Part shown: positions 37,756 through 40,312 of the stretch, one piece after another
Position numbering within the stretch: position 1 is the stretch's first letter
Layout of the letters: each line of letters opens with the position of its first letter
Assembly (NCBI RefSeq): GCF_029258575.1
Contig: NZ_JARHYI010000026.1
Span: 1 to 41,471, forward strand
Source of the DNA: Brachyspira sp.
GTDB taxonomy: Bacteria > Spirochaetota > Brachyspiria > Brachyspirales > Brachyspiraceae
Direction: 5' to 3'
Length of the DNA: 41,471 nt
The notes under the pieces: generated by a model
Databases searched by the model: none
Told to the model about the DNA's origin: nothing
The model's input: the letters and a program-made list of their open reading frames with translations, nothing else
Position numbers and translations under genes: made by a program

Positions 37756-37783
37756 TTGATTTTTTTATCTTATATGATATAAT
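37756..37783 (+). promoter_or_regulatory. pyrBC promoter with extended -10
   Basis: TTGATT (37756-37761), 16-bp spacer, TATAAT (37778-37783) preceded by TGA at the extended -10. The predicted transcript starts near 37790, leaving a leader of about 210 nt before pyrB. Confidence 0.8.
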
Positions 37784-37812
37784 CCATTCAATTTATTATA
37801 ATAGGATAAAGA

Positions 37813-37968
37813 ATGAAAAATATATTTTTTAAATACAAGATTATTTTTTATTTGCTACCCTATTTTGTTTATTTAAATTTTCGAATTTGGAATTTTTTAA
37901 AAATTTTAAGGAATAAAGTTGTTATCTTTAACAATTTTATTCCTTTTTTTTATGCTGAATTTCAATAA
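37813..37968 (+). CDS. Candidate pyrBC leader peptide (51 aa)
   Basis: An ATG with AGGA six bases upstream opens a 51-codon frame that ends in TAA at 37966-37968, 31 bp before pyrB. The peptide is strongly hydrophobic/aromatic (MKNIFFKYKIIFYLLPYF at the start), with Phe and Tyr codons written as TTT and TAT. Its RNA therefore has repeated U runs before the hairpin at 37908-37945, which lies wholly inside the frame. This is the arrangement of the E. coli pyrBI leader: a ribosome closely following RNA polymerase would prevent the hairpin. Whether the peptide itself has a role, or only its translation, cannot be told. It is short and could be chance, but the ribosome site and position argue against that. 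Confidence 0.65.
   Translation: MKNIFFKYKIIFYLLPYFVYLNFRIWNFLKILRNKVVIFNNFIPFFYAEFQ
37908..37951 (+). terminator. Attenuator (intrinsic terminator) in the pyrBC leader
   Basis: Bases 37908-37923 pair with 37930-37945 over 16 bp (one G-U, 6-nt loop ATCTTT), followed by a run of Ts ending at 37951. It lies between the promoter and pyrB on the same strand with no complete upstream gene, so it acts as a premature terminator. Confidence 0.88.
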
Positions 37969-37999
37969 AAACAATTAACTACTTTTTAAGGGAGCAACA

Positions 38000-39079
38000 A
38001 TGAGAAATTTTATATCTGTCAAAGAGTTATCAAAAGAAGAAATTATAGAGGTATTGGACATAGCTAAAAGGTTAGATAACACTGATAATAATGAGAGAAG
38101 AAAAATGATGGATGGAATGATAATGACAAGTATATTTTTTGAACCTTCCACAAGGACTAGATTATCATTCACATCTGCAGCTTATAAAATGGGATGTAAA
38201 GAATTAGGATTTGATAACCCAGATAAAAGCTCCATAAAAAAGGGAGAATCATTAAGAGATACTATTATTATGGTTTCAGCATATTCGGATATTATAGTTA
38301 TGCGTCATAATATAGACGGTGCTGCTAAATTTGCTGAAGAAGTTACAGATTGTCCTATCATAAATGCAGGAGACGGTTCTAATGAACATCCAAGTCAAAC
38401 TTTACTTGATTTATACACATTAAGAGAAGAATTAGGCGGTATAGAAAATAAAAAAGTGGCATTTGTGGGCGATACTAAATATGGAAGAACTGTTCATTCA
38501 TTAGCAAAAGCTTTAAAAAAGTTTAATGGAGCGTTTTATTTTATTTCTCCTGATCTTATACAAATACCTGATTATATATTAAAAGAATTAGATAAGTCTG
38601 GAATCAAATATAAAAAATTAAATAATTATGAAGAAATACTTAAAGATATAGATTGCTTATATATGACAAGAATACAAAAAGAAAGATTTGATGATATTAA
38701 TGAATATAAAAAAGTTAAAAATGCTTTTAATATATCAAGAGCAACCATAGAAGGCAAATGTAAAGATAATATGATAATAATGCACCCTCTTCCAAGAGTA
38801 GATGAAATCAATATAGATTTAGATGATACAAAATATGCTAAATATTTTATACAGGCTAAAAATGGAGTGCCTACTAGAATGGCTATGCTTGCCGTTGCTT
38901 CAGGAGTAATAGAATTAAAGTCCAAAAGAAAAGAAAAACCTTATCCTATAGTAGACAATAAAGAAATGCTTTGTACAAACACAAAATGCGTTACTCACTT
39001 TGAAGAAACAAAAAATAAAGTTATGAAAAGAAGTTACGGAGATTTTTGCTACTACTGTAATAGGGAAATAGGAAAATAA
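38000..39079 (+). CDS. pyrB: Aspartate carbamoyltransferase with C-terminal PyrI-type zinc domain
   Basis: This is the first committed step of pyrimidine synthesis, carbamoyl phosphate plus aspartate to carbamoylaspartate. The catalytic part (about 1-310) has FFEPSTRTRLSF, MRHNIDGAA, NAGDGSNEHPSQTLLDLY and MHPLPRVDEI, all intact. The chain is 359 residues, about 50 longer than a plain PyrB. The extra tail contains Cys325-x4-Cys330 in CTNTKCVTH and Cys350-x2-Cys353 in CYYC, matching the four zinc cysteines of the regulatory chain PyrI (CPNSNCISH...CKYC). The nucleotide-binding domain of PyrI is absent. AAGGGAG precedes the ATG. It is cotranscribed with pyrC (3 bp gap) behind an attenuator. Confidence 0.96.
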   Translation: MRNFISVKELSKEEIIEVLDIAKRLDNTDNNERRKMMDGMIMTSIFFEPSTRTRLSFTSAAYKMGCKELGFDNPDKSSIKKGESLRDTIIMVSAYSDIIVMRHNIDGAAKFAEEVTDCPIINAGDGSNEHPSQTLLDLYTLREELGGIENKKVAFVGDTKYGRTVHSLAKALKKFNGAFYFISPDLIQIPDYILKELDKSGIKYKKLNNYEEILKDIDCLYMTRIQKERFDDINEYKKVKNAFNISRATIEGKCKDNMIIMHPLPRVDEINIDLDDTKYAKYFIQAKNGVPTRMAMLAVASGVIELKSKRKEKPYPIVDNKEMLCTNTKCVTHFEETKNKVMKRSYGDFCYYCNREIGK

Positions 39080-39082
39080 ACT

Positions 39083-40312
39083 ATGATAATAAAAAATGCT
39101 AGAATAGCAAATAATGAAAAAGCAGTTACTATAATAATAGAAGATGAAAAAATAAAAAAAATAGATGAAGAAAATAATTTTGAAAAATATTTATCTTATG
39201 ATAATAATATAATAGATGCTAATTATAATTATGTTCTTGCTGGAATAATAGACCCTCATGTTCATATGAGAGATCCAGGACTTACACATAAAGAAGATTT
39301 TAGTTCTGGAAGCAAAGCATGTGTAAGAGGAGGTGTTACAGTATTTTTGGATATGCCTAATACTATACCGAATACTATTTCAAAAGAAAATCTAATTGAA
39401 AAAAAATCTATGATGATTGGAAAATCTTATGCAGATTATGGATTTCATTTCGGAGGAAGTAAGGCGGATAATAGTAATGATATAAAAAATATTGTCAATG
39501 AAGTGGCATCTACTAAAATTTTCTTTAATGCTTCTACAGGAAATATGCTTGTGGAAAATGATAAAATATTAGAAAAATTATTTGAAGTTTCAAAAATAGT
39601 TACTGTTCATGCAGAAGATAAAATGGTTGATAAAGCTATAAAAATTGCTAAAAATACAAATACACCATTATATTTATGTCATTTATCGCTTGAAAGTGAA
39701 ATCAACTCATTAAAAAAAGCAAAAGATTCTGGAATGGTAATTTATGGGGAAGTTACTACTCATCATTTATTTTTAAATATTGAAGATGTAAATAAAAATG
39801 ATAAGAATAAAATGCTGCTTAGAATGAAGCCTGAATTAAGAGAAAAACATAATAATAAAGCTTTATGGAATGCAATATTAGATGGTACAATAGATACTAT
39901 AGGAACAGATCATGCTCCTCATTTAATAAGTGAAAAATTAGAAAAACTTGTATTTGGAATTCCATCTGTTGAGCATTCTCTTGAATTAATGCTTAAAAAA
40001 GTTAAGGATAATACCATAGACTTAAAATTATTAACAAAAATAATGAGTGAAAATACTTCCAAAATATTCGGCATACAAAATAAGGGATTATTAAAAGAAA
40101 ATTATGATGCCGATTTAGTAATAGCAGATTTAAATGATAATTCAGAAATAGAAGAAAAAGATATAATCACTAAAGCAGGCTGGTCGCCTTATATTGGTTT
40201 TCAAAGAGGCGGAAAAGTTTTAACTACTATAGTACGCGGAAATATAGTTTATAATAATGGACAATTTACAGATTATCTTATAGGAAAGGAAATAAAATAT
40301 ATTAATAAATAA
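39083..40312 (+). CDS. pyrC: Dihydroorotase
   Basis: This zinc amidohydrolase cyclises carbamoylaspartate to dihydroorotate, the step after PyrB. The 409-residue type-I form has GIIDPHVHMRDPGLTHKEDF (His59, His61), GGVTVFLDMPNT, a later HAEDK, LCHLSLESE, GEVTTHHLFL and GTDHAPH with the catalytic Asp, and the closing small beta domain near LLKENYDADLVIADL. It is 3 bp downstream of pyrB, so translationally linked. No carAB, pyrD, pyrE or pyrF follow; the operon ends at the convergent methyltransferase gene. No clear terminator is seen in the 5-bp gap. Confidence 0.95.
   Translation: MIIKNARIANNEKAVTIIIEDEKIKKIDEENNFEKYLSYDNNIIDANYNYVLAGIIDPHVHMRDPGLTHKEDFSSGSKACVRGGVTVFLDMPNTIPNTISKENLIEKKSMMIGKSYADYGFHFGGSKADNSNDIKNIVNEVASTKIFFNASTGNMLVENDKILEKLFEVSKIVTVHAEDKMVDKAIKIAKNTNTPLYLCHLSLESEINSLKKAKDSGMVIYGEVTTHHLFLNIEDVNKNDKNKMLLRMKPELREKHNNKALWNAILDGTIDTIGTDHAPHLISEKLEKLVFGIPSVEHSLELMLKKVKDNTIDLKLLTKIMSENTSKIFGIQNKGLLKENYDADLVIADLNDNSEIEEKDIITKAGWSPYIGFQRGGKVLTTIVRGNIVYNNGQFTDYLIGKEIKYINK

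Follow-up and report, generated by a model that had tools for sequence, protein, structure and literature searches.

A probable pyrBI-type, translation-coupled attenuator upstream of pyrBC in Brachyspira, with counterparts in Fusobacteriota

The pyrBC operon of Brachyspira sp. is likely to be controlled by a translation-coupled transcription attenuator of the pyrBI type, with UTP, by analogy with Escherichia coli, as its most probable input. Nucleotide sensing through the spacing of ribosome and RNA polymerase has its textbook example in the pyrBI attenuator, which is known from enteric bacteria. In the window (the whole 41,471-nucleotide stretch of DNA analyzed here), the segment from 37756 to 38000 carries, in order, TTGATT-16-TATAAT, CAATTTA, TAGGA, ATG, an open frame, a hairpin leading into T8, TAA, AAGGGAG, and pyrB (Table 1). 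The layout was recovered in 24 Brachyspira loci and in dozens of Fusobacteriota genomes, and related leaders were found upstream of two further pyrimidine operons.

Table 1. Features of the pyrBC leader and operon (positions in the window)
Feature	Position	Strand	Evidence or remark
Promoter, sigma-70 type: -35 TTGATT (37756-37761), -10 TATAAT (37778-37783)	37756..37783	+	hexamers kept in aligned Brachyspira loci
AATTT at predicted transcription start, possible UTP-sensitive slippage site	37790..37794	+	conserved position
Leader ribosome binding site, TAGGA	37802..37806	+	GG kept in nearly all genomes
Leader peptide frame, 51 codons, ATG at 37813, stop TAA at 37966-37968	37813..37968	+	open to hairpin in 24/24 genomes
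U-rich stretch just 5' of hairpin, proposed pause region	37863..37907	+	60% T
Intrinsic terminator (attenuator): 17-bp stem (37908-37945), 4-nt loop, T8 tail (37944-37951)	37908..37951	+	z -7.2; covariation
pyrB ribosome binding site, AAGGGAG	37988..37994	+	seen in sequence; kept in Brachyspira alignment
pyrB, aspartate carbamoyltransferase fused to PyrI-like zinc-binding tail (~residues 307-357)	38000..39079	+	TIGR00670, 364.6 bits
pyrC, dihydroorotase	39083..40312	+	

Architecture and conservation of the pyrB leader

Most of these elements had been named in the original prediction, which was made from the window's letters. The strong promoter it described can be read directly from the -35 and -10 hexamers, separated by a 16-nt spacer and with TG preceding the -10 element; the AATTT motif at the start had gone unmentioned. 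AGGA with its ATG, the 51-codon U-rich frame, a stop past the hairpin (23 nt beyond the stem), and a separate ribosome site ahead of the pyrB ATG are likewise present. The predicted hairpin does end in eight T residues and does lie inside the frame, but its stem has 17 bp rather than 16. It is strongly stable (dG -18.4, z -7.2), none of 200 shuffled sequences being equally so, and when hairpins from Brachyspira and Fusobacteriota are aligned, 12 of 16 pairs, as defined by the RNAalifold structure, show compensatory changes. The upstream neighbor, dxs, is divergent (37662 to 35809, minus strand), and the hairpin therefore cannot be the terminator of that gene.

Conservation was assessed by aligning the 24 Brachyspira pyrB loci for which upstream sequence was available. 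Promoter, ribosome site, start codon, hairpin, and T tract occur in all 24, with small departures in the most divergent loci. The leader frame is open to the stem in every locus, against an expectation of 3-13% per sequence after dinucleotide shuffling, and the two other reading frames are open in 0/24 and 1/24; these loci are related and hence do not amount to 24 independent tests, but the leaders still vary considerably and carry indels. The original prediction had held that ribosome site, frame, and hairpin should persist among relatives while the peptide should not, and that a frame not conserved in relatives would speak against the idea. The frame was kept throughout, as were the ribosome site and hairpin, and the peptide across the hairpin was not. 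A blind detector, defined as a terminator upstream of a gene plus a frame that is preceded by a ribosome site and runs into that terminator, was run on Brachyspira DNA and reported the layout at all 7 pyrB genes, whereas 72 other genes gave no hit. The same detector recovered E. coli pyrL as a positive control.

Upstream of the hairpin, the frame looks translated. Codon-aligned Brachyspira pairs differ at 686, 659, and 1351 first, second, and third codon positions, and omega is roughly estimated at 0.44; it is on this third-position excess and omega that the reading rests. The peptide in this part shows purifying selection, with some conserved residues (IIFYL), a feature for which the pyrBI logic has no need. 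The frame in which the hairpin itself is read varies from species to species, giving RNKVVIFNNFIPFF in some and GIKLLSLTILFLFF in others. No family match was obtained for the peptide in family searches, and inspection agreed with the earlier remark that it bears no evident likeness to the E. coli leader peptide. The start codon lies 95 nt from the stem in this locus and 76-98 nt from it across Brachyspira; the same script gives 88 nt for E. coli pyrL. The stop codon falls past the hairpin in 18 of 24 Brachyspira loci, as it does in E. coli, and inside it in the other 6 and in most Fusobacteriota; in two Brachyspira loci (L005 and L009) it overlaps the pyrB start.

Of the window's 45-nt stretches, 1.2% reach the T content of the 45 nt directly preceding the stem, and the T fraction of the leader as a whole falls in the top 1.8% of the window, which is not extreme. 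The U-richness of the leader is partly the background of an AT-rich genome.

The proposed switch and competing explanations

In the proposed mechanism, transcription would start at AATTT, as predicted, and a ribosome would load at TAGGA-ATG and translate the leader frame. When UTP is scarce, RNA polymerase would slow in the U-rich stretch, allowing the ribosome to close up; its footprint would then prevent the hairpin at 37908-37945 from forming, and polymerase would read into pyrBC. When UTP is plentiful, polymerase would run ahead, the hairpin would form, and transcription would end at T8. Masking by the ribosome would be the simplest switch because the terminator lies inside a frame that looks translated and no competing upstream pairing was found: pairing of upstream RNA with the 5' arm of the terminator was at the level of shuffled sequence in 24 of 24 Brachyspira loci. 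The pyrBI terminator likewise lies within its leader gene, and a terminator situated in the first 100 bp of a coding sequence is not repressed by ribosomes unless a pause synchronizes the two machines (PMC4824070).

In promoter, AATTT start, ribosome site, leader frame with an intrinsic terminator inside it, and separate ribosome site for pyrB, the Brachyspira locus matches E. coli pyrBI with its leader gene pyrL (b4246). The two differ in composition and gene content. The E. coli stem is short and GC-rich whereas that of Brachyspira is longer and AT-rich, the Brachyspira leader is much richer in U and A, and Brachyspira pyrB carries a fused zinc tail and is followed by pyrC, whereas E. coli pyrB is followed by pyrI. 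The proposal that pyrBI-like logic operates in this genome is supported, as to architecture and likely switch, by the conserved frame and hairpin and by the lack of an antiterminator and of a PyrR element; its UTP-sensing part is drawn from analogy.

A first alternative, which we regard as unlikely, is a general coupling sensor that responds to any imbalance between the speeds of translation and transcription, or to another nucleotide, and not to UTP in particular. Such a reading would fit a leader with no UTP-specific aptamer, and the shielding of terminators by ribosomes is generic (PMC4824070; PMC5021804). It does not account for an element that precedes de novo pyrimidine operons and was found at none of the 72 other genes tested, nor for the U-richness of the sequence before the stem in Brachyspira, which Fusobacteriota exceed.

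UTP may also act at initiation, through slippage at AATTT as a possible second control step like that of E. coli pyrBI. AATTT[A/G] stands exactly 6 nt after the -10 element in 23 of 24 Brachyspira genomes, amid variable flanking bases, and the most divergent genome has TATTTA at this position. In direct comparison, the E. coli MG1655 pyrBI start region reads TATAATGCCGGACAATTTG, and the reiterative promoters of E. coli pyrBI and carAB share with the Brachyspira promoter an A start (predicted here) followed by TTT just after the -10 element; the spacing from -10 to start is one base shorter here than in pyrBI. UTP-sensitive slippage has been established at the E. coli pyrBI, carAB, codBA, and upp starts, where it needs a run of three T and is favored by an A start (PMC6245113), and the required run of at least three T is present beside the predicted Brachyspira start. 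The pattern is not unique, with about 10 places in the genome against 3 for the reversed control.

That such slippage is the main control, the hairpin being a weak, fixed terminator, has rather little to recommend it. The fixed spacing, the A start, and the T run all favor it, but it would leave the conserved frame and hairpin without a function, and Fusobacteriota keep both in leaders among which no AATTT was found at the start in those examined.

Attenuation of the amino-acid type, as in trp and his, in which a ribosome stalled at codons for a scarce amino acid chooses between antiterminator and terminator, is quite improbable. It shares with the pyrB leader a translated peptide, some of whose residues are conserved, and a terminator. 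However, it depends on an antiterminator and on regulatory codons; the upstream pairing noted above is at shuffled level, and the leader codons are simply those of an AT-rich sequence (F, I, L, Y, K, and N) and form no run related to pyrimidine metabolism. In addition, amino-acid attenuators place their terminators over 20 bp past the leader gene (PMC4824070), whereas this one lies inside the frame.

Very improbable, too, is that PyrR or an undescribed riboswitch governs the terminator. The genome does contain a pyrR-like gene (C7, 189.6 bits, above the cut-off), and Bacillus-type PyrR attenuators (RF00515) also place a terminator before pyr genes, but Brachyspira has a translated leader frame in place of a PyrR-binding element or antiterminator. 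A PyrR-binding element, which the original prediction had named as evidence that would count against it, was sought in the leader and in four genomes and none scored above cut-off; the single weak match in the window's own genome (C38) adjoins unrelated genes and not pyr genes. The leader had no Rfam match even at E = 10 except two chance snoRNA matches, and the structure upstream of the hairpin was no more stable than that of shuffled sequence. As a separate observation, a repeated motif, GTGCAATATCTATGG...CTTAAACA, occurs at L006 51-65, L044 98-112, and L021 2846-2860; in some genomes it precedes pyrB, and in the genome of the window it precedes the pyrR-like gene, but the window itself does not contain it.

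Finally, it is hardly credible that the frame simply encodes an ordinary small protein and has a terminator of its own, with pyrBC served by another promoter. Codon conservation and the omega value would suit this reading, but the coding frame contains the terminator, species differ in the frame used across the hairpin, and the peptide has no family match.

Fusobacteriota and the carAB and pyrKDFE operons

The original prediction placed the translation-coupled attenuator in this spirochaete-like genome; comparison showed that it is not specific to it, the element being common to Fusobacteriota with the same pyrB. The best match outside Brachyspira is Cetobacterium pyrB (58%), with the same C-terminal zinc tail and the same upstream layout. 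Among 69 upstream regions drawn from 98 Fusobacteriota genomes, with a terminator entered by a ribosome-site-preceded frame as criterion, 43 had the layout, including 28 of the 29 closest. T content before the stem is mostly 56-67% in close Fusobacteriota. The fusobacterial leaders at L053-L063 have an A- and Lys-rich first half and very U-rich final 45 nt before the stem, an asymmetry sharper than in Brachyspira.

In other spirochaetes, 2 of 20 pyrB regions were positive by the layout test, and their PyrB proteins are at most 49% identical and without the zinc tail; in sister genera of the Brachyspiraceae, no pyrB was found at 1e-50. A few unrelated spirochaetes (L134, L136, and L139, pyrB upstream regions of other Spirochaetota) have short frames entering a terminator, with the ATG about 8-9 nt after the -10 element in L136 and L139. 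In a tree, the PyrB proteins of Brachyspira and Fusobacteriota form one group (100/99), apart from those of other spirochaetes and of E. coli. The attenuator is thus probably shared by descent with Fusobacteriota, and the simplest reading of the Brachyspira, Fusobacteriota, other spirochaete, and E. coli sequences compared is that Brachyspira acquired pyrB together with its attenuator from a fusobacterial-type source. Convergence with the E. coli element, which the original prediction had raised, is plausible, the alternative being that this element is very old.

The PyrB protein itself has a C-terminal tail (window 38918-39070) that resembles the PyrI zinc-binding domain (CTNTKCVTHFE..FCYYC), with a weak TIGR00240 match at residues 307-357 (E 0.0045), and this zinc-tail form is common to Brachyspira and Fusobacteriota. 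The PyrI nucleotide-binding domain is missing, and for this reason the enzyme may lack classical allosteric feedback.

Leaders of a related kind were found at the remaining de novo operons. Upstream of carAB, a short frame reaches the terminator in 21 of 21 Brachyspira loci, a count biased by the rule for choosing the start, which was the first ATG with a frame running as far as the hairpin; there is no strong ribosome site, and omega is about 0.51. In the window's own genome (C6, L150 at ~1330-1460, upstream of carA), this frame reads MIWKYFKIKTNLRMMQFLIILKKIGD up to its stop and enters a strong terminator, as also in L154-L174. Also conserved in the carAB leader is a mini-hairpin (CTGC...GCAG) with a T run behind it, resembling a pause hairpin.

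Upstream of pyrKDFE, 17 of 24 Brachyspira loci combine a promoter and a terminator with a mini-frame of 9-31 codons whose ATG stands exactly 8 nt downstream of the -10 element; this near-leaderless arrangement was located upstream of pyrK in L179-L198. It is missing in the B. pilosicoli-like group, and the copy in the window's genome is interrupted by the contig end. The pyrK leader is the weakest of the three cases, with omega about 0.85, a weak codon test, and a stop often placed a few bases before the stem. Taken by their sequences, the carAB and pyrKDFE leaders suggest regulon-wide control without a repressor. We put at about even the prospect that the whole de novo pathway (pyrBC, carAB, and pyrKDFE) lies under three separate ribosome-coupled attenuators with no repressor, the pyrKDFE one near-leaderless and the pyrB one shared with Fusobacteriota by descent, together with its gene.

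Implications for pyrimidine control

The comparisons support placing the pyrB attenuator with the known pyrBI kind; notable are its reach into Fusobacteriota and the parallel leaders at carAB and pyrKDFE. No paper describing the layout was found in the open-licence literature searched, from which most subscription journals are missing. Transcription-translation coupling has been little studied in the phyla of Brachyspira and Fusobacteriota, and the leader offers a natural reporter for it. Its presence in 24 Brachyspira loci and dozens of Fusobacteriota genomes extends to distant bacteria a form of control known from E. coli, and coupling close enough to mask a terminator probably serves regulation in two phyla. 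Together with the pyrB element, the carAB and pyrKDFE leaders would make attenuation in Brachyspira pathway-wide.
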